Shown: piece after piece, positions 13,823-28,467 of the stretch
Numbering within the stretch: position 1 is the first letter of the stretch
Layout of the letters: every line of letters begins with the position of its first letter
NCBI RefSeq assembly: GCF_026262575.1
Contig: NZ_JAPKFL010000029.1
Coordinates: 1 to 64,000 of the forward strand
Origin: Streptomyces marinisediminis
GTDB taxonomy: Bacteria; Actinomycetota; Actinomycetes; Streptomycetales; Streptomycetaceae
Length of the DNA stretch: 64,000 nucleotides
Direction of reading: 5' to 3'
Translations under genes and position numbers: made by a program
Notes under the pieces: generated by a model
What the model saw: the letters and a program-made list of their open reading frames with translations, nothing else
The model's database searches: none
Told to the model about the DNA's origin: nothing

Positions 13823-14009
13823 GCCCGTCAGTCTACGGCGCGGCGCGGACGGCTCCGCCGGTCAGTCCGCCTCCGGAGCCGGTTCTGCACCGCCCGGCTC
13901 CCGCCCGCGCCCGAACGGCGCGGGGCGTCGCGGGGCGGCGCGGGGCGTCGCGGCGCCGAACACCCGGGCGGGCGGCGGGGGCAGGGGCCGCGGGGTGCCG
14001 GGCGGGGTG

Positions 14010-14186: not shown

Positions 14187-14654
14187 CTAGTCGAGCAGTT
14201 CCCGGGCGAAGACGTAGTGGGGGCCCACGCCCTCGATGGTGAACTCCTCGCCGTACGTGCGGTAGCCGTGGTGCTCGTAGAAGCCCCGGGCCCCGGTGCG
14301 CCCGTTGCACCACAGCGCCCTCGCGCCGCGCCGCCGCGCCTCGGCGGTGCCCGCCGCCAGCACGGCGGCGCCGTAGCCCCGGCCCCGGGCGGCCGCCGCG
14401 CTGGCCATGCCGCGGATGCGGTAGGCCGGTCCCGGCGGGCCGCCGGGACCGGGGAAGGGCTCGGGGTAGAAGCTGCCGCAGCCCAGCACCGCGTCCTCGG
14501 CGGAACCCGCGGCGCCGTGGGCGGCCACGTGGAACGCGCCCTCCCACGCGTCCTCGGCGAAGCGGGCGGTCTCCGCCGGCAGGTCGGGGCGCAGCACGCT
14601 CCAGCGCAGGTCGAAGATCGCGTCCAGGGGTACGACGGCGGTCCTGATCGGCAT
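14187..14654 (-). CDS. GNAT-family N-acetyltransferase
   Basis: The 155-residue product has the GNAT acetyl-CoA loop (ASAAAARGRGYGAAVLAAG) and the C-terminal ARGFYEHHGYRTYGEEF motif. It likely transfers an acetyl group to a small molecule or protein N-terminus; the substrate is unknown. The ATG at 14654 is preceded 6 nt upstream by TACGCT, which suggests a leaderless transcript. Its stop codon lies in a CTAG immediately next to the MITE-like element, so the insertion is flush with the 3' end but leaves the protein intact. Confidence 0.88.
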   Translation of the reverse strand: MPIRTAVVPLDAIFDLRWSVLRPDLPAETARFAEDAWEGAFHVAAHGAAGSAEDAVLGCGSFYPEPFPGPGGPPGPAYRIRGMASAAAARGRGYGAAVLAAGTAEARRRGARALWCNGRTGARGFYEHHGYRTYGEEFTIEGVGPHYVFARELLD

Positions 14655-14723
14655 GCGCGCAGCGTACTGCGCCGCGCGCCGTGCGGGGCGGGCCCGCGGC
14701 GGGTGCTCGCGGTGCCCGCTCTG

Positions 14724-15536
14724 TCAGCGGCGGGCCCGGCGGGGCACCGGGACGGCCGGGGTGCGGCCGTCGGGCAGGAAGAGCACCGAGTTCACGTAGC
14801 GGCGGTGGGGCAGCACCGAGCGGCGCAGCAGGCCGTGCTCGGCGACGTGCGCGGTGCGCTCCTGGTGCCCGGCCAGGTCGAACGCCTCCACCGGTATCCA
14901 GTGCGCGGCGGGCAGCACCCACCCCGCGTAGCCGAGGTCGGACAGCAGCTCCAGCACGGGGCCCGGGGGCGCGATGCGCGTCTCCAGCTCGACGAACAGG
15001 GCCGGGCGCCAGCGGCGCAGGGTGGCCTCGGCGCCGCGCAGCACGGCGGCCTCGTGCCCGTCCACGTCGATCTTGACCAGGCGGACGTCCGCCAGGCCCA
15101 GCCCGTCGAGGCCGACGCAGCCGACCTCCAGCCGCTCGGCGTGCACCTCCGCGCGGCGCACCAGGGAGGAGACCCCGCGCTCGCCGGTGCCGCCGGGCGG
15201 CAGCCACAGCGTGGCGGTGCCCGCCCGCTCGGCCGCCGCCGCCTGCACCACGCGGACGTTGCCGGGGACGGTGGCCCGCAGCACGGCGGCCAGCGCGGGC
15301 ACCGGTTCCACGGTGACCACGCTCTCCGCGCGGCGGGCCAGCCGGTGCGTCCAGGGGCCGTACCAGCCGCCGACGTCCACGGCGGTGCCGCCGCGCGGGC
15401 AGAAGTCGGCGAGGCGGCGCAGCTCCGGCTCGAAGCGCGGGTAGAGCCGTACCGCCGCGCCCGCGACGAGCCGGGCGGGCAGGTGCGGTCCGAGGCGGGC
15501 GGCGAGCGTCACGGCGTCCCGGCCCGCGCGCACCAC
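14724..15536 (-). CDS. FkbM-family methyltransferase
   Basis: The 270-residue product has the SAM site AVDVGGWYGPWTHRLARRAE (about 48-67), the acidic VEPVPALAAVL, and the FkbM-typical VKIDVDGHEAAVLRGAE at about 154-170. FkbM enzymes O-methylate sugars, polyketides or glycolipids. It is the last gene of an eight-gene overlapping run and overlaps the Trm112-like gene by 28 bp. Within that run it may methylate the glycan or lipid product; this is inferred from context. Confidence 0.88.
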   Translation of the reverse strand: MVRAGRDAVTLAARLGPHLPARLVAGAAVRLYPRFEPELRRLADFCPRGGTAVDVGGWYGPWTHRLARRAESVVTVEPVPALAAVLRATVPGNVRVVQAAAAERAGTATLWLPPGGTGERGVSSLVRRAEVHAERLEVGCVGLDGLGLADVRLVKIDVDGHEAAVLRGAEATLRRWRPALFVELETRIAPPGPVLELLSDLGYAGWVLPAAHWIPVEAFDLAGHQERTAHVAEHGLLRRSVLPHRRYVNSVLFLPDGRTPAVPVPRRARR

Positions 15537-15721
15537 CGGGCGTGGTCGGCGTCCCCGACCGGTTCCCCCGAGGCGGGCAGCAGCCGGGGCACGCCGTCGA
15601 CGATGGGGTAGCGGCGGCGCAGCCGGGGGTTGTAGAGGCCGTCCCCCCGCTCCAGCAGCAGGAGCGGCCCCTTGTCGAGGGGGCAGGCGAGGATGGCCAG
15701 GAGCGGGTCGTCAGGGGACAT
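15509..15721 (-). CDS. Trm112-like small protein
   Basis: The 70-residue product has the Trm112/UPF0434 fold signature: LLAILACPLDKGPLLLLERG then NPRLRRRYPIVDGVPRLLP. Only one of the usual zinc-site cysteines is present in the first half, which is normal for bacterial members. Trm112 proteins stabilise or activate partner methyltransferases. It overlaps the FkbM methyltransferase by 28 bp and the DMT-type gene by 11 bp, so a partnership with one of the operon's methyltransferases is plausible. Confidence 0.88.
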   Translation of the reverse strand: MSPDDPLLAILACPLDKGPLLLLERGDGLYNPRLRRRYPIVDGVPRLLPASGEPVGDADHARWCARAGTP

Positions 15722-16688
15722 GGCGTACGCCTTCCGTACGGGGGTGGGGGAGCGGGACCGCGCCGGCCGGGTGGGGCGGCGTGGGGACGGTGGGGGAGTC
15801 GGGGGAGCCGGCGGGCTCGTCGTGCCGGGGCAGGGCGAGCAGCACCGTGACGGCCAGCGCGGCGCCGCCCAGCCGCAGGGCCAGCCGCAGCGGCTCCGCG
15901 GGCAGCGGCTCGTCGAACGCGACCGTCCCGGCGGCGACGGTGAACAGGAACGTCACGGTGGTGCACACCGGGACGATGAGCGAGGCCCGGCAGCGCTGGA
16001 GCGCGGTCTGCGAGAGCACCAGCCCGCTGGAGCCGGTGCACAGCAGCAGGTAGGGATAGGGGGAGGCCAGCACCGCCAGCCCCCACTCCGGCACGGTGCG
16101 CTCCTCCAGCAGCCCGGCCACGCCCTTGATCGCCAGCGAGCTGACGCCGTACAGGAAGCCGACGGCCACGCCGTAGGGCACTCCGGCCGTCGGCAGCCGG
16201 TGCCGCCGCCGGGACCGGCGCTCGGCCGTGACGAACAGCAGCAGGCCCAGCGCCAGCGACGGGACGGTCAGGGCCAGCAGCAGCGGCGGGGGCGCGGTGT
16301 GGCTGATCGCCTCCGGCCCACCGCGCAGCGACAGCACGATCATCACCAGCGCCGCCAGGATCGCGAGCATGGCCAGCCGCTCGCGCCCGCTGGAGCGCTC
16401 GCCGAGGAAGACCGGCGACAGCAGGAGCAGCATCACCAGACCGGTGACGAACAGCCCCTGGGCGGCCACCAGCGGCAGCGTGCGGTAGACGGCGAGCTGG
16501 GCGGCGAAGCCCAGGCCCAGCGCCCCGGCGCCCACCAGCCACAGCGGGCTGCGCACCAGGTGCAGCACCACCTGCCCGGGGCGGGCGGCCGACAGCGGCG
16601 GCAGGCCGGTCAGCGCCCGCTTCTCCACCACGAAGCCGACGCTGAACAGCAGGTTGGCCAGCAGCGCCGCGGCGACGCCCAGCCACAC
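15711..16688 (-). CDS. DMT/EamA-type multi-pass membrane protein
   Basis: The 325-residue product shows about nine to ten hydrophobic helices, starting WLGVAAALLANLLFSVGFVV, with two EamA-like halves. Members of this superfamily export metabolites or lipid-linked sugars. It is separated from the upstream methyltransferase stop by 2 bp and overlaps the Trm112-like gene by 11 bp. In this operon it could move a glycolipid intermediate across the membrane; that is inference. The C-terminal 45 residues are Pro/His-rich and cytoplasmic. Confidence 0.8.
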   Translation of the reverse strand: MWLGVAAALLANLLFSVGFVVEKRALTGLPPLSAARPGQVVLHLVRSPLWLVGAGALGLGFAAQLAVYRTLPLVAAQGLFVTGLVMLLLLSPVFLGERSSGRERLAMLAILAALVMIVLSLRGGPEAISHTAPPPLLLALTVPSLALGLLLFVTAERRSRRRHRLPTAGVPYGVAVGFLYGVSSLAIKGVAGLLEERTVPEWGLAVLASPYPYLLLCTGSSGLVLSQTALQRCRASLIVPVCTTVTFLFTVAAGTVAFDEPLPAEPLRLALRLGGAALAVTVLLALPRHDEPAGSPDSPTVPTPPHPAGAVPLPHPRTEGVRHVP

Positions 16689-16690
16689 GG

Positions 16691-17455
16691 CTAGCCGCCG
16701 TCCCGCGGGGTGACGCGGCCCGCTCCGTCGACGGGACCCGCCCGGTCGACGCGGCGGGCGTGCACGAGCAGGATCGAGGCGAGCGACGGCGCCCGGCAGG
16801 CGAGCCGGTCCAGGGGCCGCAGCGGGCGCGGCACGTCGTGGTAGGGCGCGCCGGTGACGCGTACGACGCGGAACCCGGCGGCCGGCAGCATCGAGCGCAG
16901 CGCGCGGGCGGTGTAGAGCCGCAGGTGGCCGACGACCTGGGCGCCCGGACGCCCGTGGACGCCGCGCAGCGACACCTCGGAGAAGACCGGCTGCACCCCG
17001 GCCAGCAGCAGCCCGCGGTTGTACCAGGCGGCCAGGTTCGGGGTGGACAGCAGCAGGTGGCCGCCGGGGCGCAGCACCCGGTGCAGCTCGTCGAGCGCTG
17101 CGTCGGGGTCCACCAGGTGCTCGATGACCTCGCTGAACAGCACCGCGTCGGCGGCCCCCGTGGCGAACGGCAGCGCGGCCAGCTCGCCGCGCACGGCGCT
17201 CAGGCGGGTGTTCGCCCGGCGCAGCGCGTCGTGCGACCAGTCGCAGCCCACGATCCGCTTGCCCGGCAGCAGCGGCGTGGCGACGGCGGCGGCCGTGCCG
17301 TCACCGCAGCCGACGTCCAGCACGGTGCCGGCGCCGGGGCCGAGCGCGCGGGCCAGGAGGGCGGCCTGGCGGCGGGAGCGGTCGGCACCGGAGGCGACCG
17401 GCGTGGCCGGGTCCTCGTACAGCTCCCGCAGGGTGTCGCTCCGGACGGTGCTCAC
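16691..17455 (-). CDS. Class I SAM-dependent methyltransferase
   Basis: The 254-residue product has a complete methyltransferase_11-type core: TVLDVGCGDGTAAAVATPLL (about 44-63), VGCDWSHDALRRAN, DAVLFSEVIEHLVDPDAAL and VLRPGGHLLLSTPN. The GTG at 17455 follows AGGAGGCCACCCC and overlaps the upstream stop in a GTGA arrangement, which implies translational coupling. It belongs to the overlapping envelope operon, where it may methylate a sugar or lipid. Confidence 0.88.
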   Translation of the reverse strand: MSTVRSDTLRELYEDPATPVASGADRSRRQAALLARALGPGAGTVLDVGCGDGTAAAVATPLLPGKRIVGCDWSHDALRRANTRLSAVRGELAALPFATGAADAVLFSEVIEHLVDPDAALDELHRVLRPGGHLLLSTPNLAAWYNRGLLLAGVQPVFSEVSLRGVHGRPGAQVVGHLRLYTARALRSMLPAAGFRVVRVTGAPYHDVPRPLRPLDRLACRAPSLASILLVHARRVDRAGPVDGAGRVTPRDGG

Positions 17456-18753
17456 GGGGTGGCCTCCTGACCGGCCGCCGGCGCGGCACCGGCGGTCTGC
17501 GCGAGGGTGCGGGTGAACAGCTCGCCGAGCCGCTGCCCGGCCGCGTCGTCCAGCCGGGTGCGCGACCAGCGCAGCGCGAGCTGGAGCCGCCGGCTGACGG
17601 AGATCGTGGTCAGGGCCACGCCGCGGGGCATCCGCGCCGGGGCCGAGAACCAGGCGCGGGTGGCCCGGCCCGCGTCGCCGAAGTCCATCGGGTACGCCAG
17701 CCGCCCCAGGTTGGACAGCAGCGTCGTGGACGCCCACGGGGCCGCCGCGCCGCGCAGCGCCCGGGCGGCGGCCGCGCGGACGCCCACCGGCAGGACGGGG
17801 GCGGTCAGCAGGGCGCCGCTGCGGCCCAGTTGCGGCCGCGGCACGGCCTTGAGCGCGCGGGTGCGCAGTGCCGTGGCGCGCAGCAGCGCCTCGACCGCCT
17901 CCGGGTCGCCGTCCACGGCCGCGCCCGGGGTGCCGAAGGGCACTTCCACCAGCCGGGTGCCGTTGCCGATGGGCATCTCGGCGGTGCGCGGGCGGTCGTC
18001 GACGGGCATGGTCAGCCGGACGGGGCGGTCGGGCTCGCCGTGCTCGCGGTTCCAGCGGGCGGCCGTCAGGCAGGCGGCCACCAGCAACTGGTCGTTGACC
18101 GTGTACGGGGACCCGGGGGGCCGGGTGGGCAGCGGCAGGTCGGCCAGGTACATGCCGTTGCCCAGGCCGGGCGCGCCGCTGGTGTGCTCGGCGGCGATGC
18201 GCGCCGGGCGGGCCCACGGCGAGCCGGCCGGCGGCGGCGCACCGACCGGCGCGGCACCGCCGCCGCGCACTGGCACCGGGGCGGGCGCGTTGTCCCGGCC
18301 GCCGTACAGCTCGGCCGCGGTGGCGAGCACGCGCAGGCAGGCGGGGCCGTCCAGCGCGGTGTGGTGCACCGTCGCCACCAGCACGCAGCCCGCCCCCTCG
18401 GGGGCGTCGACCACCTCGATGCGCACCGGCGGCGCGGCCTCCAGCGGCGGCGCGTCGGTGAGCGCGCGGCGGCGCGCGTCGGCCAGGGTGCCGCCGGGGA
18501 AGCGGACCGGGTCGGTGTCCGGTTCGGCGGTCAGCTCCCAGGCGTAGCTCCGGTGCCACCAGCGCACCGGGGCCTGCCGCACGAGGATGCGCGGGTGCCG
18601 GGTGAACGCCTCCCGGACGGCGGTGCGCAGCCGGTCGGGGTCGAGTCGGCCCGGGAGGTGGATCTCGATGTGGACGGTGTCCGGCTCGTACTGCTCCAGG
18701 CAGTGCCGGGAGATCTCGTCCACGGTGGGGAAGGGGATGCGCCGCGTGGTCAT
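17452..18753 (-). CDS. Condensation/WS-DGAT-type acyltransferase
   Basis: The 433-residue product carries the catalytic HHxxxDG motif as VHHTALDGPACLRVLATAAE at about residue 130. A later stretch resembles the DFGWG region (MDFGDAGRATRAWFSAPARM). This fits the BAHD/condensation superfamily, which includes PapA acyltransferases and wax ester synthases. It is a free-standing protein with no carrier or adenylation domain, so acylation of a surface glycolipid or trehalose-type lipid is a reasonable guess. The ATG at 18753 follows GGGAGGCCCG and overlaps the AftD-like stop (ATGA). Confidence 0.75.
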   Translation of the reverse strand: MTTRRIPFPTVDEISRHCLEQYEPDTVHIEIHLPGRLDPDRLRTAVREAFTRHPRILVRQAPVRWWHRSYAWELTAEPDTDPVRFPGGTLADARRRALTDAPPLEAAPPVRIEVVDAPEGAGCVLVATVHHTALDGPACLRVLATAAELYGGRDNAPAPVPVRGGGAAPVGAPPPAGSPWARPARIAAEHTSGAPGLGNGMYLADLPLPTRPPGSPYTVNDQLLVAACLTAARWNREHGEPDRPVRLTMPVDDRPRTAEMPIGNGTRLVEVPFGTPGAAVDGDPEAVEALLRATALRTRALKAVPRPQLGRSGALLTAPVLPVGVRAAAARALRGAAAPWASTTLLSNLGRLAYPMDFGDAGRATRAWFSAPARMPRGVALTTISVSRRLQLALRWSRTRLDDAAGQRLGELFTRTLAQTAGAAPAAGQEATP

Positions 18754-21700
18754 CGGGCCTCCCGGGTGTCGCCGTGGCCCCGGACTGGTCCGCCGGGCGG
18801 AGGGCCGCCGGGGGCGGGTCCGGCCGGGGCCGGGCCGCCGGGCGGCGGCCCGGTGAGCGCGGGCGGGCCCAGGGTCGGGGCGGTGTCGTCGTGGACGGGG
18901 GCGGAGGTGGCCCCGGGCCGGTGGCGGCCCGGCTCGCGGCGCGCGGGCACCGTGACGACGGCGGCCGCCAGGGCCAGCAGGGCGAGCGCCTGCCCCTCGG
19001 GCCCGAAGGCACCGCGCTCCTGGGCGACGGCGGAGTCCGCGAACAGCACGGCCACCGCGCCGCCGAGCGCCATCGCCCCGACCGCCAGCGGCACCAGCAG
19101 GCCCGGACGCCACCAGGCGAGCAGCGCGACCGCCGGCACCACCAGCGCGTAGGGCCCGGCCACCAGCGCCAGGACGAGCGTCAGCGCCCCCGAGCCCAGC
19201 AGCCAGCCCGGAGCGGGCGGCGGCACGGCGCCCGCCCGCTCGTCGACGTCCCGGCGGCGGACGAGCGCCAGCGCGGCGAGCACCAGCACGCCCACCACCG
19301 CCGCGACCATGCCACCGGTGTACCAGGCGGCCGGGCGGTACTCCAGGGTGATCGTGCCGCCCGCGCCCTCGGGGACGAGGAAGCCCTGCTGCCACCCGTC
19401 CAGCCGCACCGGGCTGAGCTCCTCGCCGTCCAGCGTGGCCGCCCAGCCCTCGTTGGCCGCCAGGAAGGTGCGCAGGTAGGACGCCGGTCCCGCGGAGACC
19501 TCCACGGTGCGCTCGTCGCCGCTCCACTCCTGGGCGGACGCCGAGCGGGCGGGGGCACCGGTCGCGGTGTCGCCGCGGGTGAGGGAGACCCGGGTGAGCG
19601 CGAGCGGCCCCTCGTCGCCGGTGGTCAGGGTGTGCTCACCGGCGTCCAGCCGCAGACCGCCGTCGGTGGTGCCCTCGCCGCACAGCTCCACCGCGAGCGG
19701 GCGCCGCTCCGTCAGGTCGCGGACGGTGCCGGAGACGCTGGTGCGGTACTCCCGCCCGTCCACGGTGACGGCCGGGCCCCGGCCGCACTCCAGCGTGAGG
19801 GGGCGGTCCTCGGCGGGCGGGCCGACGCGGTGGGCCTCCAGACCGGGGACGTGGATCTCGTTGAGGCCGACCGGGAGCTGGAGGTCGCCGTCGGCCAGCG
19901 GGTGCGCGACCGTGAGCGGCGCCGTCTCCAGCACGGTGATGGTCAGCTCGTCGGTGGTCATCGCCTCGAACCGCGCCCAGCCGTTCTCGTCGACGGCCGT
20001 GGTGACCGCGCCGCCCGGGGAGGTGATCTCCACCTTCGTCGGACGGGCGGAGACGCCTCCGGCCGCGGAGAGGACGACGGCGTCCACCGGCCGGGCCCCG
20101 GGCCAGGAGACGGTGACGACCGGGTCGTCGCCCGCGATCCACGCCGTGGTCAGGTCGCCGTCCACCAGGTTGCGCGGGCTGAGCGAGTGCCCGGTGGGGC
20201 TGGTGGACGCGGCGGTCGCGGTGACGCGGTCGCCGCGACCGGGGGCGACCTCGTCCAGCAGCTCGTCGAACGCCTCGCCGGGCACCGGCAGGGCGCCGGC
20301 CCGGACGGCGTAGGTGCCGCCTTCGGTGAGGGAGAAGTGGCGGGCCATGCCCCGCTCGGCGCCGACCGGGTTCAGGCCCCCGGGGTCGGCGTCCCGGTGC
20401 AGGGAGACCGTCTCCGCCCGCGCGGGCTCGGCGTCGGTCGCGTCCTCGGGCAGCGACAGCATCCGGCTGACGTCCACGCCGGGCACGGAGATCTCCGCGA
20501 AGCCCGCGCCGGTCAGTCCCGGGCGGCGCTCCTCGGTCCGCAGGATCGTCAGCCTCAGCCACTGCGCCGCTCCGGCCGGTGCCCGCACGCGCTGCGGGCC
20601 GTCGCCGTCCCGGAGCACGGTGGTCTCGGCGCCCCGGTCCGTCTCGACCAGCACCTCGGTGGGGGTCGGGCGCAGGCCGTCGTCCGGGAGCGGGGTCAGC
20701 TCGATCGTCGCGGGGACGTCGGTCTTCTCGGTGAAGTCGATCCGCACCCACTGACCGGCGCTGTCGTCGGCGCTGCCCTCGGCCCAGCCCGTGCGCGGGT
20801 CGTTGTCGAAGGCGTGCACGGGGTCGAACTGCGGCAGGTGGAAGAGCCAGCTACCGCTGCTGGAGGCGGTCACGGACCTCGCGCCGCGGAAGGTGGCCAC
20901 CGTCTGGTGCGCCACGCCGTCCACCGGGAGGATCTGCTGGGGCTCCTCGCCCGGGTCCTGGAGGCTGTCCGGGTGGTTGCGGCCCTGCGCGGTGTAGGTG
21001 AAGGAGGTGTTGTGGTTGACCAGGCCGAACCGGGTGTCGGCGCGGCGCAGCCCGTCGGCGGTGACCTGGAGGTCCGGGGCGTCGACGCCGGGGTGCGCGT
21101 CACCGGTCAGCACCGCGGGACGGGCGCGGAAGTCCGGGTCCGCCGACAGCGGTAGCAGGGCCTCCGGGCCGCCGCTGACGCGGGCGGTCTCCGCGACGGC
21201 CTGCGCCTCGACCCGGCCGGGCCGCTCGGGCGCGTCCTCGCCCGCCGGCGCGTAGATCTCCACCGCCTGCTGGCGTGCGTAGAAGCCCTGGATCTCCACC
21301 GGGGTGTCGGGCGGGATGCGCCCGCCGGTGGTCAGCGGCCCGAAGCCCTCGACCTTCTCGTAGCCGGAGGACGCGAGCGTCCGCTTGACCATCTGCGGCG
21401 GCACGTAGCCGACCTGGTCCGGGTCGAGGTCGTTGCGGACGACGACGTAGTGCAGCCCCGCGCGGCTCAGGTAGTGCGCCAGCCCCGGCACCTCGCCGCC
21501 GCCCAGCAGCGCCTGCTCCACGGCGTCCAGCATGCGGCGTTCACCGGGCGGGCCGAAGGGCACGTAGTCGCGCTGCGCCCAGGGCGAGCGGGCCAGCACG
21601 TGCAGCGGCTGGTCGATGGGCGAGCCCCAGGTGTAGACGCCGTGCGCGGTGGCGGGCACCACCAGGGCGCGAGTGTGCGGGGAGTTGTCCTCCAGCCAGG

Positions 21701-23096
21701 CGGCGGTGTCCTTCCAGTGGTCGGGCAGCTCCTCGAACGCGCCCGGCTGGAGCACCGCGCCGGTCAGGTAGGGCAGGGCCAGGCCCGGCAGGACGAGCAG
21801 CGCCGCCAGCGCCGGCACCAGCCGCCCGGAACGCGTCCGGCCGGCCCCGCCCGGTACGCCGCCCGCGCCCGGCGCACCGGCGCGCTCGCGGTGGCGCGCG
21901 GCCAGGACGGCGGTCAGGTGGGCGAGGCCGAACGCGAGGGCGAGCGCCATGCCGGGCTGGAACTTGTAGATGTTGCGGAACGGCTTGAGCCAGCCGTCCA
22001 GCCAGCCCTGGAAGCCCTCGGCGAACGGCGCGCCGAGCGCGCCCCCGTACCCGGCGAGCATCACGAGCGTGACCGTGAGCAGGGTGAGCACCAGCCAGCG
22101 CCGCTCGGGCATGTCCCGCCGGGCGACGCCGCCGAGGCCGAGCGCGGCGGCCAGCGCGGACGCGGCGATGGCCAGCGCGCCGGTGGCCATCAGCCAGCCG
22201 GCCGGGAGCCAGGCCTCGCCGAAGTGGAGGTAGGCCACCCAGTTGCCCGCGCCGCGCAGCATCTCCAGCGCCGACATGGTGGAGGTGGTGGCCGTCGCCT
22301 GCTCGACGTAGGGCATGAAGTCCTCGCCGTAGACGCCGAGGAGCAGCAGCGGGACGACCCACCACAGCGTCGCCAGGACGACGCCCGGGGCCCACCACAG
22401 CAGCAGCGAGGTGCGCCGCCGCCCGGTGCGGGTGAGGACGTACAGGCCCACCGGCAGCAGCGCGGCCAGCGTGGAGGCCGCGTTGACGCCGCCCATGAAC
22501 GGGATGAGCAGCGCCGAGCGGGCCGCGGCGACGCGCGCGGTGGGGGCCGTGCCGTCGAGCCGGGGCACCAGGGGCAGCAGCACCCACGGCAGCAGCGCGC
22601 CGGGCAGCGCGCCGGCCGAGGTGGAGCCGACGATGATGGTGAACGTCGGCCACAGCGCGTACGCGGCCGAGCCCAGCAGCCGGGTGCGCGCGGTGCCGAC
22701 GCCGAAGCGCTCGGCCAGCCGCAGCGCGCCCCAGAAGGCGGTCGTCACCACCAGGGCCAGCCACAGCCGCTCGGCCAGCCACACCGGCACGCCGACGAGG
22801 TCGGCCAGGGCGTAGAACGGCAGCATCGGGAAGAGGTAGCCGACGTACTGGTCGGCGATGCCGCCGAAGCCGGAGCGGTCCGACCACAGGCTGCCGAGCT
22901 CGCCGAGGAACCTCAGCGGGTCCGTGGCGACGCCCAGCTTCGTCTCGAAGGTCATCGCGCCCGGCGCGGCCAGGACGAAGGCGACCAGGACCAGCACGTA
23001 GGCGCCCAGCAGCCAGCGGCGGCCGCGGGGCGGCTCCGCGGGCTGGGCACCTGGCCCCACCGGGTCCAGTGGGAGGGTGCGATCAGTGGTCGTCAT
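18750..23096 (-). CDS. AftD-like arabinofuranosyltransferase family (DUF3367) membrane protein
   Basis: The 1,448-residue product starts with about a dozen transmembrane helices (GT-C-like; LLGAYVLVLVAFVLAAPGAM from about residue 30). A very large extracellular region follows with discoidin-like F5/8-type blocks, for example SSGSWLFHLPQFDPVHAFDN and LVDGDLTTAWI. The C-terminus has further membrane helices and a Pro/Gly tail. This is the layout of mycobacterial AftD, which adds alpha-1,3-arabinofuranose to arabinogalactan and lipoarabinomannan. Streptomyces lack mycolyl-arabinogalactan, so the acceptor here is unknown. The ATG at 23096 overlaps the upstream methyltransferase by 14 bp. At over 4.3 kb it is the largest gene in the window. 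Confidence 0.88.
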   Translation of the reverse strand: MTTTDRTLPLDPVGPGAQPAEPPRGRRWLLGAYVLVLVAFVLAAPGAMTFETKLGVATDPLRFLGELGSLWSDRSGFGGIADQYVGYLFPMLPFYALADLVGVPVWLAERLWLALVVTTAFWGALRLAERFGVGTARTRLLGSAAYALWPTFTIIVGSTSAGALPGALLPWVLLPLVPRLDGTAPTARVAAARSALLIPFMGGVNAASTLAALLPVGLYVLTRTGRRRTSLLLWWAPGVVLATLWWVVPLLLLGVYGEDFMPYVEQATATTSTMSALEMLRGAGNWVAYLHFGEAWLPAGWLMATGALAIAASALAAALGLGGVARRDMPERRWLVLTLLTVTLVMLAGYGGALGAPFAEGFQGWLDGWLKPFRNIYKFQPGMALALAFGLAHLTAVLAARHRERAGAPGAGGVPGGAGRTRSGRLVPALAALLVLPGLALPYLTGAVLQPGAFEELPDHWKDTAAWLEDNSPHTRALVVPATAHGVYTWGSPIDQPLHVLARSPWAQRDYVPFGPPGERRMLDAVEQALLGGGEVPGLAHYLSRAGLHYVVVRNDLDPDQVGYVPPQMVKRTLASSGYEKVEGFGPLTTGGRIPPDTPVEIQGFYARQQAVEIYAPAGEDAPERPGRVEAQAVAETARVSGGPEALLPLSADPDFRARPAVLTGDAHPGVDAPDLQVTADGLRRADTRFGLVNHNTSFTYTAQGRNHPDSLQDPGEEPQQILPVDGVAHQTVATFRGARSVTASSSGSWLFHLPQFDPVHAFDNDPRTGWAEGSADDSAGQWVRIDFTEKTDVPATIELTPLPDDGLRPTPTEVLVETDRGAETTVLRDGDGPQRVRAPAGAAQWLRLTILRTEERRPGLTGAGFAEISVPGVDVSRMLSLPEDATDAEPARAETVSLHRDADPGGLNPVGAERGMARHFSLTEGGTYAVRAGALPVPGEAFDELLDEVAPGRGDRVTATAASTSPTGHSLSPRNLVDGDLTTAWIAGDDPVVTVSWPGARPVDAVVLSAAGGVSARPTKVEITSPGGAVTTAVDENGWARFEAMTTDELTITVLETAPLTVAHPLADGDLQLPVGLNEIHVPGLEAHRVGPPAEDRPLTLECGRGPAVTVDGREYRTSVSGTVRDLTERRPLAVELCGEGTTDGGLRLDAGEHTLTTGDEGPLALTRVSLTRGDTATGAPARSASAQEWSGDERTVEVSAGPASYLRTFLAANEGWAATLDGEELSPVRLDGWQQGFLVPEGAGGTITLEYRPAAWYTGGMVAAVVGVLVLAALALVRRRDVDERAGAVPPPAPGWLLGSGALTLVLALVAGPYALVVPAVALLAWWRPGLLVPLAVGAMALGGAVAVLFADSAVAQERGAFGPEGQALALLALAAAVVTVPARREPGRHRPGATSAPVHDDTAPTLGPPALTGPPPGGPAPAGPAPGGPPPGGPVRGHGDTREAR

Positions 23097-23829
23097 GGGG
23101 GCACCGCCGGAGGATGAGGAGGAGGTTCCAGGTGGCGATCTCGCGCAGGACCGGGACCCGGGTGATGGCATGGGCCCAGAAGGGCCAGTAACGCGACCGG
23201 GCCGCGACGATCTCGACGTCGTCGCGGGAGCGGACGTGGCGCAGGGTGGAGCCGACGTGCACGGCGAAGAGGTTGTCGCCCAGGGTGTGCTTGGCGGGGC
23301 GGCCGTGGCGGCGGGCGTAGCGGGCGCGGGCCCGCTCGTGGCCCAGGTAGTGCCAGGGCGCGGTCTCGTGGCCGCCCCAGGGGGAGTACCAGTTGGTGAA
23401 GGCGACGTAGAGCAGCCCGCCGGGCCGGGTGACGCGCACCAGCTCGCTGAGGAACGTCCGCGGGTCCGCCACGTGCTCCAGCACGTTGGAGGAGAAGGTG
23501 ACGTCGGCGACGGCGTCGGCCACCGGCAGCAGGTAGCCGTCGGCCAGGACCGCCCCGGGGGGCCGTTCTCCGCGCGCGAACAGCTCGCGCGGGTCGGGTT
23601 CGAGGAGGAGGGCCTGGGCGCCGCGACGCCGGAACTCCTCGCTGAAGTGGCCGCTGCCGCCGCCCACGTCGAGAACGGTTTGGCCGCGCAGCGGCACGTG
23701 GCGCTCGACCTGGTCGGCCGCGTCGCGCGCCAGGAGCCGGTAGCAGGTCTCGGGGTCGCGCTGTTCGCGCAGGAACGCCGTGAACAGGGCGGCCGACCGC
23801 CGCAGGGACGGGTCCTTCACCAGCGTCAC
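23083..23829 (-). CDS. Class I SAM-dependent methyltransferase
   Basis: The 248-residue product has TVLDVGGGSGHFSEEFRRRG at about residue 50, ADVTFSSNVLEHVADPRTFL, and VTRPGGLLYVAFTNWYSPWG. This is a methyltransferase_11-type fold often found in glycan clusters. The GTG at 23829 overlaps the stop of the upstream glycosyltransferase (GTGA), and the 3' end overlaps the AftD-like gene by 14 bp. It is probably translated with them and may modify a sugar of the same product. Confidence 0.87.
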   Translation of the reverse strand: MTLVKDPSLRRSAALFTAFLREQRDPETCYRLLARDAADQVERHVPLRGQTVLDVGGGSGHFSEEFRRRGAQALLLEPDPRELFARGERPPGAVLADGYLLPVADAVADVTFSSNVLEHVADPRTFLSELVRVTRPGGLLYVAFTNWYSPWGGHETAPWHYLGHERARARYARRHGRPAKHTLGDNLFAVHVGSTLRHVRSRDDVEIVAARSRYWPFWAHAITRVPVLREIATWNLLLILRRCPHDDH

Positions 23830-25049
23830 CTCGCGGCTCCGCCGGCCCGCCGCGCGGCGGCCGCGCGGTGGGGTGCCCACGCCTCGGCGGCCACCTCGCG
23901 GAAGGCGGCGACGGTGCGCGACCAGCCGAACTCGGCGGCCCGGGCCCGGGCCGCCTCGCCCATCGCGACGCGGCGCGCGGTGGACAGGCCCAGCGTGCAC
24001 CAGGCCGCGGCGAAGGAGCTCTCGCCGCGGGCCAGCACCCCGGTGGTGCCGTCGGCGACGGAGTCCCGCAGCCCGGGGATGTCGAAGCCGACGGCGGGCG
24101 TGCCGCGCGCGGCGGCCTCCATGACCACCAGGCCCCAGCCCTCCACCATCGAGGGGTGCAGCAGCAGCCACGCCGAGCACAGCAGCCGGTGCTTCTCCGC
24201 CTCCGGGACGTGCCCGGTGAAGGTGACGTCCGGCCCGGCCATGGCCTCCAGCCGGGCCCGCTCGGGACCGTCCCCGACGATGACCAGCCGGCCTCCGGTC
24301 ACCGGGCGGACCCGCTCCCACAGGCGCAGCAGCAGGTCGATGCGCTTGTACTCCACCAGGCGGCCGACGGCCAGGAACACCGGCTCGGGCGCGGTGGGCA
24401 GCGGCGTCCCGGCCTCCTCGACGCCGTTGTGCACGATGCGGATGCGCTCGCCCGCGACGCCGATGCCGCGCAGCGCCGCGGCGGTGGAGCCGGAGACGGC
24501 GACCATGAGGTTGTCCCGGTGGGTGCGGGCCAGCGCCCAGTGCTCCAGCCGCCGGCCCAGCCGCGCGGCCGGGGCCGGGTAGCGCACGCCCCACAGCTCG
24601 GTGTGCACGTGGTTGACGAAGCACAGGGTGGGGCCCCGGTGCCACAGCGGCGCCAGGTAGGGCATGCCGTTGCACACCTCGACCAGCAGGTCGGACGGGC
24701 CCACCTGCCGGGCCAGCGTGCGGGGGGCGCGCAGGAAGTGCGCGGTGTCGCCGCCGGCCGAGACCACCCGGTAGTCCCGCCGGGCGGCGGGTCCGCCGCA
24801 CACCAGGGTCACCTCGTGGCCGTGGGCGGTGAGCCCGGCGGCGATCCGGTCGATGAGCAGTTCGGAACCGCCCGCGGCCGGGTTGTCCAGGTCACGACGG
24901 GCGAGGAAGACGATGCGGCGCGGGTGGCGGTCCGCCGGGGCGGCGGGGGTGTCGGCCTGAGCGGTGGCGGCCGCCGGGGCCGCGGCGGCCGGCCGCCGCG
25001 AGGGGACGAAGGCGGCGGAGGAGGCCACCGAGGGCACCTGCTGGGGCAT
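23826..25049 (-). CDS. GT4-family glycosyltransferase
   Basis: The product of about 407 residues has a GT-B fold. The N-terminal acceptor domain starts RRIVFLARRDLDNPAAGGSE. The C-terminal donor domain contains IVHNGVEE, FLAVGRLVEYKRIDLLLRLW, VIVGDGPE and the GT4 EX7E region MVEGWGLVVMEAAARGTPAV. It should transfer a nucleotide-activated sugar to a lipid or glycan acceptor at the inner membrane face. I prefer the ATG at 25049, because GGAG lies 6 nt upstream inside the GTG-started longer frame (25061). It is the first gene of the overlapping operon. Confidence 0.88.
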   Translation of the reverse strand: MPQQVPSVASSAAFVPSRRPAAAAPAAATAQADTPAAPADRHPRRIVFLARRDLDNPAAGGSELLIDRIAAGLTAHGHEVTLVCGGPAARRDYRVVSAGGDTAHFLRAPRTLARQVGPSDLLVEVCNGMPYLAPLWHRGPTLCFVNHVHTELWGVRYPAPAARLGRRLEHWALARTHRDNLMVAVSGSTAAALRGIGVAGERIRIVHNGVEEAGTPLPTAPEPVFLAVGRLVEYKRIDLLLRLWERVRPVTGGRLVIVGDGPERARLEAMAGPDVTFTGHVPEAEKHRLLCSAWLLLHPSMVEGWGLVVMEAAARGTPAVGFDIPGLRDSVADGTTGVLARGESSFAAAWCTLGLSTARRVAMGEAARARAAEFGWSRTVAAFREVAAEAWAPHRAAAARRAGGAAR

Positions 25050-25394
25050 GGGGCGCTCCACTCGTGTGAGGGGTGCGGTGGTGGACAGTGGCGTGCGTGG
25101 CGGTGCGGGGGTGGTGTGGCGCGGATGCGGGGGTGGCGCGGTACGGGGTGGTGCGGGGTCGTGCGAACTGCGGGGCTACCGGGCGGGGTGGTGCGCGGGT
25201 AGGGCCGCGGGTGCGCGGCGGAGACCGAGAGCCGCGAGCCGGGGGCGGTGGCTGGCCGTCGGGATGCTCAGTTTTCGCCGCTGCGTCCGATCGGGCTACT
25301 CACCCGTATGACAATTTCGCCCCGAACTTACCGGCGGGTCCTGTCACCCCCGTCCGCACGCTCCCCCGCGGTCCCCGCGGCGCTGTGACCCGTG
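25050..25394. other. 345-bp gene-free stretch, strongly G/T-skewed on the plus strand
   Basis: No coding signal is convincing. Bases 25065-25205 are rich in GTG/GGT/GCG triplets on the plus strand, a low-complexity skew. The lower-GC block at about 25265-25330 (around CCCGTATGACAATTTCGCC) is the most promoter-like part and could drive the envelope operon, but no -10/-35 pair could be fixed. Confidence 0.5.
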
Positions 25395-26339
25395 TCACCG
25401 CGGGCCGGGGCGCCCGCGCACCACCAGGAAACCGCCGACGGCGGCGAGCACCGCGCCGGCGATCCCTGCGCCCAGGGGGGCCGTGGTGCCCACCAGCCGC
25501 AGTCGGCCGCTGTCCGCCGAGGCCAGCTCGACCTGGTTCTCGACCGTCTCGTCGGTGAAGGTGAGGGCGTCGCTGTGCAGCAGCGTGACGGCGTCCTCGT
25601 CGGCGCCGGGCGCCCGCAGCGTCACCCGCGGGCCGATGGTGGCCTTCAGGATGCGTCCGGTGGCCTCGTCGACGATCAGCTCGATGTTGTCGTTGGCGTA
25701 CCACTCCTCGGCCATGACCTGCGGGGCGCTGGAGCCCACGAGGGCGCCGGGCACCTGGCGGCTGCCCGTGCGGGTGGCGTCCACGCTGCCGGTGAACCGC
25801 AGGCCCTCGTAGCCGTCCACCTCGGCCCGCTCCTCGTACGTCAGCGGCACGGCGCCGCCCAGCGTGCTGTCCCACCAGCGGTAACCGCGCTCCTGGACGT
25901 CGAAGGGGAACTTCAGGTACGCGTCGCCGGAGAACCGGGTGGGCCCCTCGTCGCAGCAGTGCACCGGCCGGTTCGTCGCCCGGTCGGTCACCCAGCGCTC
26001 GGTGGTCCACTGGAACGACTTGCGCGGGTCCGCCAGCTTCAGCGTGTCCGGGTTGTCGATCGTCGTGGAGACCTCCCAGGCGGCGACGTCGTTCTCCGTG
26101 CTGACCTCGACGTTGCCCAGCACCCGGCGGGTGACGGTGAGCTTCTGGTCCTCCCGCACCCTGACCGACTCCTGGTCGAAGTAGGACCCCGTCCCGGTCA
26201 GGACCGTGGTCTGGTCCACGTCGATCGGGGTGCGCTTGGCGCGCGGCTCCACGTAGAACGCCAGCATCGGCGCGAGGACCAGCAGGAAGACGCCGAGGCC
26301 CAGCAGGGTCAACGACAACGGTGAGGCGGAACGGCGCAT
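25395..26339 (-). CDS. DUF3068 / PorA-family membrane-anchored protein
   Basis: The 314-residue product has an N-terminal membrane segment (LTLLGLGVFLLVLAPMLAFY), a large extracytoplasmic region with TIDNPDTLKLADP and HCCDEGPTRFSGDAYLKFPF, and a C-terminal hydrophobic helix ending in a basic tail. This is the DUF3068 (porin PorA family) architecture found in actinobacteria. Function in Streptomyces is not established. It lies upstream of the envelope operon on the same strand and may belong to the same surface programme. The adjacent cysteines C126-C127 (approximate) in the CCDEG motif could form a disulfide or metal site. Confidence 0.85.
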   Translation of the reverse strand: MRRSASPLSLTLLGLGVFLLVLAPMLAFYVEPRAKRTPIDVDQTTVLTGTGSYFDQESVRVREDQKLTVTRRVLGNVEVSTENDVAAWEVSTTIDNPDTLKLADPRKSFQWTTERWVTDRATNRPVHCCDEGPTRFSGDAYLKFPFDVQERGYRWWDSTLGGAVPLTYEERAEVDGYEGLRFTGSVDATRTGSRQVPGALVGSSAPQVMAEEWYANDNIELIVDEATGRILKATIGPRVTLRAPGADEDAVTLLHSDALTFTDETVENQVELASADSGRLRLVGTTAPLGAGIAGAVLAAVGGFLVVRGRPGPR

Positions 26340-26626: not shown

Positions 26627-27256
26627 ATGCACAGACTCCTCACAGCCGGCCTGACCTGCGCTGTTTCCGCGCTGCTCGCCGTCGGTGCCGGCGTGGGCGC
26701 CGTGAGCGTGCTGAACGCCACGCCGGAGCAGCCCAACGTGCCGCTGGTGCACTTCCCCGACCATGAGCCGCAGGCGTCCGGCACGCCGTCACCCACCGCG
26801 ACGGAGGCGGACGCCGAACCCTCGCCGCCGCCCGGCGAGGCCGGGAGCGGGGACGCCGAAGACGGCCCGGGCGCCGTCGCGGCTCCGCCCCCGGGGCCGG
26901 CCGCCGCGGCCCCCGCCCCCGCACCCGGGGCGGCCGAGGGCGGCACGCGGGCCGAGGGCGACGGCGACCGTGCGGCGGCTCCGCCCGCCTCCGCCGACCG
27001 TCCGGCCCCGTCCGCCGGACCCGGCGACGGGCCCGGCGCGGGACGCGGCGAGGAGCGCGGCCCCGGCTCCGGCGAAGAGCGCGGCGAGGGCGCGGGCGGC
27101 GGCGCGGACGACGAAGGCCGTCCGGGCGAAGGGCCCGCCGACCAGGACGACGGCGCGGCGGGCGGCGGCGACGACGTGCCCGGTCCCGTGGAGCTGATCG
27201 TCCACAGCCTGCTCGGCCCGGTCCTCACCCTCCTGGACGGCGGCGGGCGGACGTGA
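26627..27256 (+). CDS. Small secreted Gly/Pro/Asp-Glu-rich protein
   Basis: The 209-residue product has a signal-peptide-like N-terminus (MHRLLTAGLTCAVSALLAVG). Next comes a short conserved-looking segment (PNVPLVHFPDHEPQ), then about 130 residues of low-complexity Gly, Pro, Ala, Asp and Glu. The end is a hydrophobic amphipathic tail, VELIVHSLLGPVLTLLDGGG. I prefer the ATG at 26627 because GAGAGAGG lies upstream; an in-frame ATG at 26606 has no ribosome binding site. The stop overlaps the PucR regulator start (GTGA), implying coupled translation. A TTGACA at 26531-26536 could be a -35 element, without a good -10. Function unknown. Confidence 0.7.
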   Translation: MHRLLTAGLTCAVSALLAVGAGVGAVSVLNATPEQPNVPLVHFPDHEPQASGTPSPTATEADAEPSPPPGEAGSGDAEDGPGAVAAPPPGPAAAAPAPAPGAAEGGTRAEGDGDRAAAPPASADRPAPSAGPGDGPGAGRGEERGPGSGEERGEGAGGGADDEGRPGEGPADQDDGAAGGGDDVPGPVELIVHSLLGPVLTLLDGGGRT

Positions 27257-28467
27257 CGGCCACGGTGCGGTCGGCCTGGAGCGCGGTCCCGGCCGGGCAG
27301 GTGTCGGCCTTCACCCGGCAAACGCGGGCCGCCATCCCGGGGCTGGCCGGGGACATCCTGCGCGAGATCCGCCGGGCGTACCCGGACCTGCCCGTCGTGC
27401 TGGACGAGTCCTCGGGCGAGCCGATGTCGCTCATCGGCATCCGCCGCGCCCTGGAGCACTTCGTCGAGCACCTGGCCACCGGCCTGGGTGCCCCGCACGC
27501 CCACCTCGCCGTCTTCCAGGAGTTCGGCCGGGGTGAGCTGCTGGGCGGCCGCAGCCTCGACTCGCTCCAGGCGATCTACCGGCTGGGCGTGCGGCTGGCC
27601 TGGCGGCGCATGGCCGAGATCGGCCAGCAGACCGAGATCCCGGCCCCGGCGATGTACGAGCTGGCCGAGTCCGGCTTCCAGTACCTCGACGGCCTGGTCG
27701 CCGAGTCCGTGCGCGGGTACGCGGAGGCCGCCGCCCGGCAGGCGGGGGAGCGGCTGCGCCTGCAACGCCGCCTGCTGGACCTGCTGCTGGACGGCGAGGC
27801 GCACGACGGCCAGGTGGAGACGCTGCTCGCCGAGCGGGCCGCCCGCATCGGCTGGCCGGTGCCCCGGTCCGTCGCGGTGGCCGTCCTCGTCCCGCCCGCC
27901 CGCGAGGCCGTGCCCCCGGCCGTGGGGCCCGAGGTGCTGCTCGACATGGAGCGCGAGCAGCCGATCATGGTCGTCCCCGAGCCGGACGCCGCGGGGCGCG
28001 GCGAGCTCCTGCGCCGGGCCACGGCCGGCTGGTCCGGCGCGATCGGCCCCCCGGTGGGCCTGGCCGACGCGGCCAAGTCCCTGCGCTGGGCGCAGTCGGC
28101 GGTGGCGCTGATGGAGCGCGGCCTGCTGCCCTCGGGCGGCCTGCTGGAGTGCACCGAGCACACCGAGGCGCTGGTGCTGCTGCCGCCCGAGGAACTCATC
28201 GACGACCTCGGCCGCCGGCTCCTCGCGCCGCTGTCCGAGTGCGGGCCCACCCACGCCCGGCGGCTGGCCGAGACCCTGCTGGCCTGGCTGGAGACCCGGG
28301 GCGGGGCCCCGGAGGTGGCCGCGCGCCTGGGCGTGCACCCGCAGACGGTGCGCTACCGGCTGCGTCAGATCCGCGAGATGTGGGGCGAGACCGTCGACGA
28401 CCCGGACCAGCGGTTCGCGCTGGAGCTGGTGCTGCGCGCGCGTCGCCTGCGCGGCGACCTGACGTGA
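27253..28467 (+). CDS. PucR-family transcriptional regulator (HTH_30)
   Basis: The 404-residue product ends with the PucR-type helix-turn-helix VAARLGVHPQTVRYRLRQIR (about 355-374). Its N-terminal 200 residues form the helical sensor region typical of actinobacterial PucR/CdaR-like regulators (RRALEHFVEHLATGLGAPHA, ELAESGFQYLDGLVAE). It is similar in size and layout to FasR about 10 kb away, so the two are paralogues. It is translated from a GTG that overlaps the stop of the secreted-protein gene, an unusual pairing. Its target is not known. Confidence 0.88.
   Translation: MTATVRSAWSAVPAGQVSAFTRQTRAAIPGLAGDILREIRRAYPDLPVVLDESSGEPMSLIGIRRALEHFVEHLATGLGAPHAHLAVFQEFGRGELLGGRSLDSLQAIYRLGVRLAWRRMAEIGQQTEIPAPAMYELAESGFQYLDGLVAESVRGYAEAAARQAGERLRLQRRLLDLLLDGEAHDGQVETLLAERAARIGWPVPRSVAVAVLVPPAREAVPPAVGPEVLLDMEREQPIMVVPEPDAAGRGELLRRATAGWSGAIGPPVGLADAAKSLRWAQSAVALMERGLLPSGGLLECTEHTEALVLLPPEELIDDLGRRLLAPLSECGPTHARRLAETLLAWLETRGGAPEVAARLGVHPQTVRYRLRQIREMWGETVDDPDQRFALELVLRARRLRGDLT

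Follow-up and report, generated by a model that had tools for sequence, protein, structure and literature searches.

The window, by which we mean the whole 64,000-nt stretch of DNA analysed here, carries on its minus strand, from 25049 to 14724, eight co-directional genes in the order GT4-MT1-AftD-AcT-MT2-DMT-Trm112-FkbM, preceded by a PgfA gene read in the same direction and, further out, by a divergent PucR gene:

27253..28467, plus strand: PucR-type regulator (PF13556, HTH_30), divergent to the cluster
25395..26339, minus strand: PgfA/LmcA-family lipid-binding envelope protein, 314 aa (NF053601, PF11271)
23826..25049, minus strand: GT4-family glycosyltransferase (PF13692/PF00534, ~1e-27), first gene of the overlapping run
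23083..23829, minus strand: MT1, class I SAM methyltransferase (PF08241), placed in the MtrP (Rv0224c/NCgl2764) family by synteny and a single hit per genome
18750..23096, minus strand: AftD-like GT-C glycosyltransferase, 1448 aa (PF11847, 721 bits; PF00754; PF24607)
17452..18753, minus strand: AcT, predicted stand-alone condensation-fold acyltransferase (motif HHTALDG and predicted fold)
16691..17455, minus strand: MT2, second class I SAM methyltransferase (PF13489, 5e-24)
15711..16688, minus strand: DMT/NIPA-like polytopic membrane protein (PF05653, 44 bits, cut-off 26)
15509..15721, minus strand: Trm112-like small protein, 70 aa (PF03966, 3e-11)
14724..15536, minus strand: FkbM-family methyltransferase, last gene (TIGR01444, 69 bits, cut-off 37.7)

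The family names are backed by Pfam except for that of AcT, which has weak matches only. From GT4 to FkbM the successive junctions are -4, -14, -4, -4, +2, -11 and -28 nt, the last overlap being 25 nt if FkbM starts at 15533, and the outer coordinates and the junctions agree with the first-pass annotation. That annotation had let the probable operon begin at GT4; its eight genes stood but its start did not, since PgfA lies 345 nt upstream in the same direction, giving nine co-directional genes, and the divergent PucR gene travels along with them. Third-position GC was 0.956–0.981 across all eight genes, and none of them contains a TTA codon. A scan of 14000–27300 found no promoter-like sites; its only terminator-like site lies on the opposite strand, against 0.8 expected by chance, and RNA folding of 25055–25394 gave a z of 0.18.

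The same gene order recurs in named Streptomyces, with AftD identities of 57–66% over the best segment, and the arrangement is therefore more than chance. The named loci number 79, of which 75 are Streptomyces, and are the best 79 of 577 relatives, not a random draw; gene order was counted in 54 of these 75, the other 21 being left out for flanks truncated at the end of a contig or locus. PgfA-GT4-MT1-AftD-AcT-MT2 and Trm112 were kept in 54/54, so that the outcome named as refuting the first-pass reading, homologues that drift apart in related genomes, did not arise. The models were built mainly from Streptomyces and relatives and refined iteratively on these very loci; where HMM hits overlapped only the best was retained, and consecutive repeats of a name were merged; MT2 scores best with the MT1 model in these scans, and a label "MT1" after AcT therefore denotes MT2. 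DnaG and GNAT were sought in 84 loci, many of them reaching only a few kb further downstream.

Among the same best 79 of 577 relatives, PucR was the divergent neighbour in 62 of the 63 loci of named Streptomyces in which the sequence reaches 5.5 kb or more upstream of AftD. It was present in 5/5 sampled relatives, and a search of 13 Streptomyces genomes returned 69–75% identity in the three with AftD and no hit above 41% in the ten without, so PucR is likely to be the regulator of the cluster. A link to the fatty-acid operon lying 7–11 kb upstream (FabF, ACP, FabH, FabD; 33677–37307) was rejected, as no match was found within 18 kb beyond PgfA in 5/5 relatives.

AftD was found in 89 of 197 genomes of the class (the calls of G130 and G177 are weak) and in 104 of 246 genomes of the genus; its absence from the other 142 sampled species argues that the locus is probably dispensable in Streptomyces. 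MT1, at E <=1e-15, gave one hit per genome and was strong in 79 of the 89 genomes with AftD, while the 108 AftD-less genomes yielded none bar one weak hit (G028); only the best first-look candidates were scored per genome (13 in the MT1 search, 7 for AcT, up to 109 for MmpA). PgfA lay within 12 kb of AftD in 63/89 genomes and at 12.8–17 kb in 4 more, with none listed on the AftD contig in 22, a count that takes one AftD hit per genome and the PgfA hits sharing its contig, most of those elsewhere being dropped. The core can come apart, since 15/89 AftD genomes had no PgfA hit and 10/89 no strong MT1 hit, the weakly called G130 and G177 being among these; 13 genomes carried PgfA-family genes without AftD, with one of these hits under the cut-off. 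The core is common to many families of the class: all four core genes were present in 26 of 36 AftD stretches read outside one family, f4, and in 21 of the 31 of these that lie outside the genus. In a 40-row MT1 tree, read with no species tree alongside, the Streptomyces sequences formed a clade whose sister was two Streptosporangiaceae MAGs. A PDB sequence search with MT1 at 1e-8 gave no lead. Family membership of GT4, MT1, MT2 and FkbM gives no clue to the acceptor.

The family f4, which we infer to be mycobacterial because of its Emb, DprE1 and gene order, ties the cluster to a locus that is already studied. Three of its stretches (L188, L189, L191) hold AftD, TmaT, PgfA, MmpA, GT4 and MT1 together, the fourth (L190) the same minus AftD, and they match the printed gene list of C. 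glutamicum cg3161-cg3168 in an excerpt of PMC7775120. The mainly-Streptomyces models pick up the LmcA/PgfA, GT and MtrP homologues in all four, where the GT4 homologue adjoins MT1 near PgfA (440–458 bits); a single MT1/MtrP hit (E <=1e-15) was found in 14/14 f4 genomes, at 1.1e-61 to 8.5e-45. Streptomyces AftD is ~30% identical to that of f4. MmpA is stated, in the portions of PMC8698533 available, to have no homologue outside corynebacteria and mycobacteria; the loci read here, with their putative MmpA homologues, contradict that restriction. Judged by titles and some passages, the open-licence PMC literature found on AftD or TmaT in Streptomyces leaves the present locus undescribed and otherwise concerns Corynebacteriales or unrelated subjects.

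The AftD of the window matches chains 6w98 (E 2.5e-143) and 6wbx (about 1e-143) over residues 25–1392 and carries F5/8-type C and CBM_AftD carbohydrate-binding modules. The acidic residue of the (D/E)TK motif in its first external loop, which we take to be catalytic, was conserved in 17/17 aligned sequences. The arabinan polymerase Emb (PF17689), however, was found in only 14 of 197 class genomes, all of them f4, and in 0/16 genomes of the genus, our own genome included, and 75 of the 89 AftD-bearing genomes are without it. DprE1 exceeded its cut-off in four of six AftD-bearing Streptomyces of the class sample (G039, G057, G073 and, as two joined hits, G191), was missing above cut-off from the other two (our own genome, best score 63 bits against 500, and G182) and was present in six AftD-less Streptomyces, so it does not follow AftD; 52/89 AftD genomes had none above cut-off. 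Since our own genome is without DprE1, arabinose is unlikely as the donor sugar here, as far as gene content can tell. Arabinogalactan or LAM synthesis as such was rejected on the Emb and DprE1 tests. The core is no orphan but the counterpart of a studied Corynebacterineae locus, and this, with the Emb count, shifts the sense of the label "AftD-like", "arabinofuranosyltransferase" being probably wrong for many bacteria with an AftD gene.

The PgfA protein scored 298 bits against the NF053601 equivalog (cut-off 160) and 5e-76 against PF11271, and its AlphaFold model (pLDDT 90.5) is a helix - beta barrel - helix that matches M. smegmatis LmcA (7shw_A) with a target-normalised TM of 0.83 and an rmsd of 2.7. 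It has no C-terminal tail, ending just past the last helix: 45–47 residues lie past the model end in three of four f4 proteins and 23 in the fourth, vs 0–14 in four other Streptomyces. Tails also occur on some PgfA proteins outside f4 (L053, L058). We know of no reason to expect a trehalose mycolate cargo for Streptomyces PgfA. The C-terminal cytoplasmic tail of PgfA is reported as critical in an excerpt of PMC9678360.

AcT owes its name to its active-site motif and predicted fold, for its profile matches to Condensation (PF00668, 19 bits) and WS/DGAT (TIGR02946, 38 bits) both fall below cut-off. The second His and the Asp of its HHxxxDG motif were invariant in 20/20 sequences, and the matches listed for its model (pLDDT 89) are mostly peptide-synthetase domains of the condensation or a related type, with TRI3 (3fot), WS/DGAT (6chj) and SgcC5 of S. 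globisporus (4znm) at ranks 48–50; a PDB sequence search with E up to 1 found no relative. Within the genus, AcT was present in 103 of 104 AftD-bearing and 0 of 142 AftD-less genomes. TmaT, an acyltransferase-3 protein, is neither among the nine co-directional genes of the cluster nor in L039-L043, and the 36 AftD stretches outside f4 held TmaT in 21, AcT in 6 and both in none. One chromosome can nevertheless carry both, since a TmaT-family gene lies past the cluster end in 2 of the 75 named Streptomyces loci (best 79 of 577 relatives; loci only). For comparison, the Actinoplanes acyltransferase AtsA shares only 13% identity with TmaT (PMC11064477, in excerpt). MmpA was found in none of nine Streptomyces genomes searched whole, our own included, and in all three non-Streptomyces genomes of that search.

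Downstream of AcT, again in the 54 fully flanked named Streptomyces loci among the best 79 of 577 relatives, the second methyltransferase was present in 54, DMT in 52, Trm112 in 54 and FkbM in 46. The DMT/NIPA-like protein is a candidate flippase or exporter, and the Trm112-like protein a candidate methyltransferase partner. FkbM was rejected as its main partner, Trm112 being retained in all 8 loci without FkbM, which makes MT1 or MT2 the more likely one.

Taken together, we regard the cluster, with a probability of about 0.62, as the form taken in Streptomyces by a locus for assembling an envelope glycolipid (or lipoglycan) that is widespread in actinobacteria; among its relatives, the mycobacterial and corynebacterial tmaT/aftD neighbourhood has been studied most. 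At the level of sequence there is four-core-gene homology, conserved linkage, co-inheritance and a set of Streptomyces-specific additions, and homology to the known tmaT/aftD locus is, on that basis, close to certain; a function in a surface glycoconjugate is quite probable. Most likely, the cluster builds a surface glycolipid or lipoglycan that does not depend on mycolates, adding methyl and acyl groups and exporting the product; to our knowledge, Streptomyces are not mycolate makers. The first-pass proposal of a sugar-lipid assembled, methylated, acylated and exported to the surface, other than mycolyl-arabinogalactan, fits this reading, though it had missed PgfA/LmcA and PucR.

A mechanism can be sketched, although as a complete scheme it is doubtful. 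Cytosolic GT4 would glycosylate a carrier, either a lipid or a polyprenyl; MT1, MT2 and FkbM would add O-methyl groups to the sugar or the lipid, the Trm112-like protein serving as partner of a methyltransferase; and AcT would esterify a hydroxyl with an acyl group, a role that may fall elsewhere to the unrelated membrane acyltransferase TmaT. The DMT protein would carry either the product or a donor through the membrane, where the AftD-like GT-C enzyme would extend the product outside, its carbohydrate-binding modules holding the glycan and its donor being a polyprenyl-phosphate sugar other than decaprenyl-phospho-arabinose, for which polyprenol-phosphate mannose is the obvious candidate. Finally, PgfA/LmcA would bind the lipid part and hand the product on.

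The rival that survives best, while still unlikely, is that the cluster decorates a known Streptomyces polymer, whether lipoteichoic or wall teichoic acid or protein O-glycans. Lipoteichoic acid is described from S. hygroscopicus NRRL 2387 in an excerpt of PMC3196553, and S. hygroscopicus ATCC 21589, a different strain, carries the cluster (L177, among the best 79 of 577 relatives); S. coelicolor O-mannosylates proteins from polyprenol-phosphate mannose according to parts of PMC5882110. PgfA/LmcA and the acyltransferase, however, suggest a lipid-bearing intermediate, and Pfam finds no teichoic-acid gene in the conserved block.

Specialised-metabolite clusters often contain GT4, FkbM, methyltransferases and condensation-fold enzymes, and FkbM and class I methyltransferases also work in natural-product pathways. 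A glycosylated, methylated and acylated natural product would further suit the patchy spread of the cluster (104/246 genus genomes) and the listed AcT fold matches, which are mostly to peptide-synthetase condensation or related domains and include one to SgcC5. We nevertheless regard it as improbable: Pfam shows no PKS, full NRPS, terpene, RiPP or other scaffold gene in the unit, the core spans many families of the class and holds a lipid-binding protein of the envelope as well as a GT-C enzyme that bears glycan-binding modules, and AftD is present in all 79 genomes with a strong MT1. Least probable is an arabinan polymer (a Streptomyces arabinogalactan or lipoarabinomannan to which AftD adds arabinofuranose from decaprenyl-phospho-arabinose), to which the full-length AftD architecture with its carbohydrate-binding modules and the DprE1 of some AftD-bearing Streptomyces would lend themselves, but against which stand the missing Emb and a DprE1 that does not track AftD.

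A locus studied as mycomembrane machinery may tentatively be seen as older and wider than mycolates and arabinan, building and exporting an acylated, methylated glycolipid or lipoglycan across actinobacteria that have no arabinan polymerase. AftD and MmpA would then be GT-C enzymes with a non-arabinose donor, the parts that MtrP, TmaT and MmpA play with trehalose mycolates would be indirect effects or a later re-use, and Streptomyces would have swapped TmaT for a condensation-fold acyltransferase and dropped MmpA. In the field, the substrates on which MtrP and PgfA/LmcA act are disputed or unknown, and PgfA, MtrP and MmpA each have an M. tuberculosis homologue that is reported as essential in excerpts of PMC9678360, PMC7775120 and PMC8698533. 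A probably dispensable Streptomyces version, with no arabinan polymerases to confuse the phenotype, would allow the basic biochemistry to be read directly.

Compared with the tmaT/aftD locus (cg3161 AftD, cg3163 TmaT, cg3164 LmcA, cg3165 MmpA, cg3166 GT, cg3168 MtrP; Rv0224c-Rv0228), the Streptomyces cluster likewise has LmcA/PgfA, GT and MtrP homologues in one neighbourhood with AftD; unlike it, it has no TmaT within the cluster, no MmpA in the nine genomes searched and a host without Emb, runs in a single direction through its nine genes from PgfA onwards, and adds AcT, MT2, DMT, Trm112, usually FkbM and the divergent PucR. In C. glutamicum, as excerpted from PMC8698533, lmcA gives an LM/LAM phenotype, whereas tmaT, mmpA and mtrP affect trehalose mycolate transport and MtrP is required for acetylated trehalose corynomycolate, so that neighbours in the locus need not serve one product. 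The window PgfA shares family and LmcA fold with PgfA (MSMEG_0317/Rv0227c) and LmcA (NCgl2760), but is without PgfA's cytoplasmic tail. Its AftD is homologous to the arabinofuranosyltransferase (6w98, 6wbx) over nearly the whole length, with GT-C and carbohydrate-binding modules common to both, yet sits in a Streptomyces host without Emb and DprE1, and donor and product probably differ. Lastly, AcT shares its predicted fold and the catalytic His/Asp of HHxxxDG with stand-alone condensation-fold acyltransferases (WS/DGAT, TRI3, SgcC5 and presumably also the PapA proteins), but falls below the PF00668 and TIGR02946 cut-offs and, in the genus, occurs only with AftD.

We confirmed on the sequence the coordinates and overlaps given in the first-pass annotation for an operon of eight genes, which follow one another on the minus strand between 25049 and 14724, their junctions measuring -4, -14, -4, -4, +2, -11 and -28 nt. 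The genome, probably a Streptomyces judging by its closest named relatives, is 5.65 Mb, with the window (75% GC) on its contig 64, and third-position GC was strong for all eight genes (0.956–0.981). In gene order, the Pfam assignments were GT4; methyltransferase (MT1, MtrP family); GT-C_AftD with F5/8-type C and CBM_AftD modules; condensation (weak; AcT, a condensation-fold acyltransferase); methyltransferase (MT2); NIPA/DMT; Trm112p; and FkbM. The broad reading proposed earlier, surface sugar-lipid assembly, methylation, acylation and export, is plausible. Although the operon is real, its limits had been drawn too narrowly, leaving out two upstream genes, and its kinship with a known locus had been overlooked. 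The added features are:

25395-26339, minus strand: PgfA/LmcA-family protein (298 bits for NF053601, whose cut-off is 160; PF11271, 5e-76)
27253-28467, divergent to the cluster, beyond the PgfA/LmcA gene: PucR-type regulator

The PgfA/LmcA gene lies directly upstream of the GT4 run on the same strand. The AlphaFold model of its product (pLDDT 90.5) matched the crystal structures of M. smegmatis LmcA best (target-normalised TM 0.77–0.83, rmsd 2.7–3.0), with LIMP-2 and CD36 as the next, weaker fold matches. Because the protein is without the C-terminal tail required by PgfA, we assigned it to the PgfA/LmcA family and not to PgfA in function; a passage of PMC9678360 ties M. smegmatis PgfA to trehalose monomycolate transport. 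A PgfA-family gene away from AftD is also possible in Streptomyces, as in seven stretches (L192-L196, L198 and L199), five of them from AftD-less species, where a methyltransferase gene lies 2.5–3.1 kb from it.

Of the best-scoring named Streptomyces loci, 63 extended far enough upstream, and 62 of these had PucR at >55% identity, always divergent. Among 13 Streptomyces genomes searched, all three with AftD carried it at 69–75% identity, and none of the ten without AftD had a match above 41%. PucR would be the regulator of the cluster. Between PucR and PgfA, an ORF at 26363-27256 (plus strand) encodes a proline-/serine-rich, possibly secreted protein, with relatives at 1e-10 in only three of 84 loci (L109, L117 and L184).

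AftD was found in 104 of 246 genomes of the genus sample, which was drawn evenly; the named loci, being the best-scoring ones, are an unfair sample, in which 54 of 75 Streptomyces loci were fully flanked and 45 of these 54 held all nine genes in order, the incomplete ones lacking FkbM (seven), DMT (one) or both (one). The gene order is complete in the S. griseus and S. lincolnensis loci (L147 and L126). Strong AcT matches (E 9e-41 or better) occurred in 103 of the 104 AftD-bearing genus genomes and in none of the 142 AftD-less ones, where top matches reached only 5e-16. The sole AftD genome without strong AcT, G245, has an assembly 82% complete in ~1770 contigs.

The genes flanking the conserved block differ between loci. 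In the window, the fatty-acid genes FabF-ACP-FabH-FabD form an operon (33677-37307, minus), and after it, from 37402, comes an ORF whose end is PucR-like; the operon had no match beside the cluster in any of five relatives. Just downstream of the cluster lie a sigma-70-type factor and a DnaG primase (10477-13822, minus), the latter 83% identical to the S. alkaliterrae gene at the equivalent place; downstream DnaG plus GNAT was matched in that species only among 84 loci, many ending too early to tell. Further along (2082-6260, minus), a tandem pair of genes encodes SpoIIE-type phosphatases that carry GAF or PAS domains.

In the class sample, AftD was detected in 89 of 197 genomes (weakly in G130 and G177), the PgfA family in 87 (86 above cut-off) and MT1 at 8.5e-45 or better in 79, with one further weak match (3e-16). 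All 79 strong MT1 genomes carried AftD, and no AftD-less genome had strong MT1, one weak match aside. PgfA occurred in 74 of the 89 AftD genomes, within 12 kb of AftD in 63, and in 13 genomes without AftD. Fisher values for this co-occurrence overstate independence because the genomes are related, but the pattern spans many families. The arabinan polymerase Emb was found in 14 of the 197 genomes, all within f4, the mycobacterium-like family, and 75 of the 89 AftD genomes had no match to it. The 14 highest DprE1 scores (at least 765 bits) were also in f4, whose AftD fragment matched solved AftD chains at 8e-169. Some genomes have two to four AftD-family matches, some near each other (L067, L076, genome G178 and the f18 genomes), and the second matches in f18 include a divergent type (~277–310 bits). 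The main value of the finding is how widely actinobacteria without detectable arabinan polymerase carry the core of AftD, PgfA, GT4 and MtrP, to which TmaT and MmpA are often added.

The donor used by mycobacterial AftD is decaprenyl-phospho-arabinose. The arabinose-donor enzyme DprE1 was not detected in the present genome (top score 63 bits, cut-off 500), nor does it follow AftD in the genus, since class-sample genus genomes had both (four), AftD alone (two), DprE1 alone (six) or neither (four). It was absent above cut-off from 52 of the 89 AftD genomes, an upper bound, since some assemblies are fragmented and some scores, such as that of G105 (484 bits), fall just short. According to passages of PMC5882110, S. 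coelicolor Ppm1 makes polyprenol-phosphate mannose, and Streptomyces are not known as makers of lipomannan or lipoarabinomannan. Polyprenol-phosphate mannose would be a natural candidate donor for the Streptomyces AftD.

TmaT is not in the Streptomyces cluster, where AcT stands in its place. The second His and the Asp of the AcT motif were invariant in 20 of 20 sequences, the first His was not, and the AcT model (pLDDT 89) had condensation domains as its top matches and ester-forming relatives further down the ranking. We examined 40 AftD stretches, 36 of them outside f4 and 31 outside both f4 and the genus; the 36 held AcT in six, TmaT in 21 and both together in none. A TmaT-family gene lay past the cluster end in two of the 75 best-scoring named Streptomyces loci. 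The simplest reading would be a non-orthologous acyltransferase replacement. Since Trm112 was present in 54 of 54 fully flanked best-scoring named Streptomyces loci and FkbM in only 46, Trm112 probably serves MT1 or MT2.

MmpA, found in 26 of the 36 non-f4 stretches and in none of nine Streptomyces genomes searched, is said in a passage of PMC8698533 to have no homologue beyond corynebacteria and mycobacteria; the homologues in non-f4 loci contradict the restriction as worded there. In L181, a Streptosporangiaceae MAG, MmpA (578 bits) shares one stretch with PgfA, MT1, GT4, AftD, AcT and Trm112. Another copy lies at L188:8230-10017, and homologues occur across L044-L078 (alignment A4). The partial similarity of MmpA to AftD already remarked in that source was supported by profile comparison with the AftD GT-C domain (hhalign, probability 98.8%, E 8.6e-17, 467 columns), and the protein might act as a glycosyltransferase and not as a membrane anchor.

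We propose that GT4 would assemble a lipid-linked glycan inside the cell, which would then be methylated and acylated and moved out, possibly by the DMT protein; the AftD-like GT-C enzyme would extend the exported glycan, and PgfA/LmcA would handle the extended product, with substrates at each step being putative. The gene families, two predicted folds, linkage and co-inheritance are the part of this picture that rests on sequence. According to passages of PMC8698533, LM/LAM are affected in C. glutamicum when lmcA is lost, and mutants without tmaT, mmpA or mtrP are altered in the acetylation and transport of trehalose mycolates; these split phenotypes are a warning for a combined single-pathway picture.

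In f4 stretches, GT4 (440–458 bits) adjoins MT1 (295–312 bits) with PgfA near, AftD is also present in three of four, and an acyltransferase-3 gene (PF01757) and a membrane protein assigned to no Pfam family stand among the core genes. This is the same gene content as in C. glutamicum, for which PMC7775120 lists cg3161 (AftD), cg3163 (TmaT), cg3164, cg3165, cg3166 (putative GT) and cg3168 (MtrP); in the NCgl numbering of a passage of PMC8698533, LmcA is NCgl2760, MmpA NCgl2761 and MtrP NCgl2764. All four core genes (AftD, PgfA, GT4 and MT1) were together in 26 of the 36 non-f4 stretches, and in 21 of the 31 that also lie outside the genus. The Streptomyces cluster is a variant form of the known tmaT/aftD locus.
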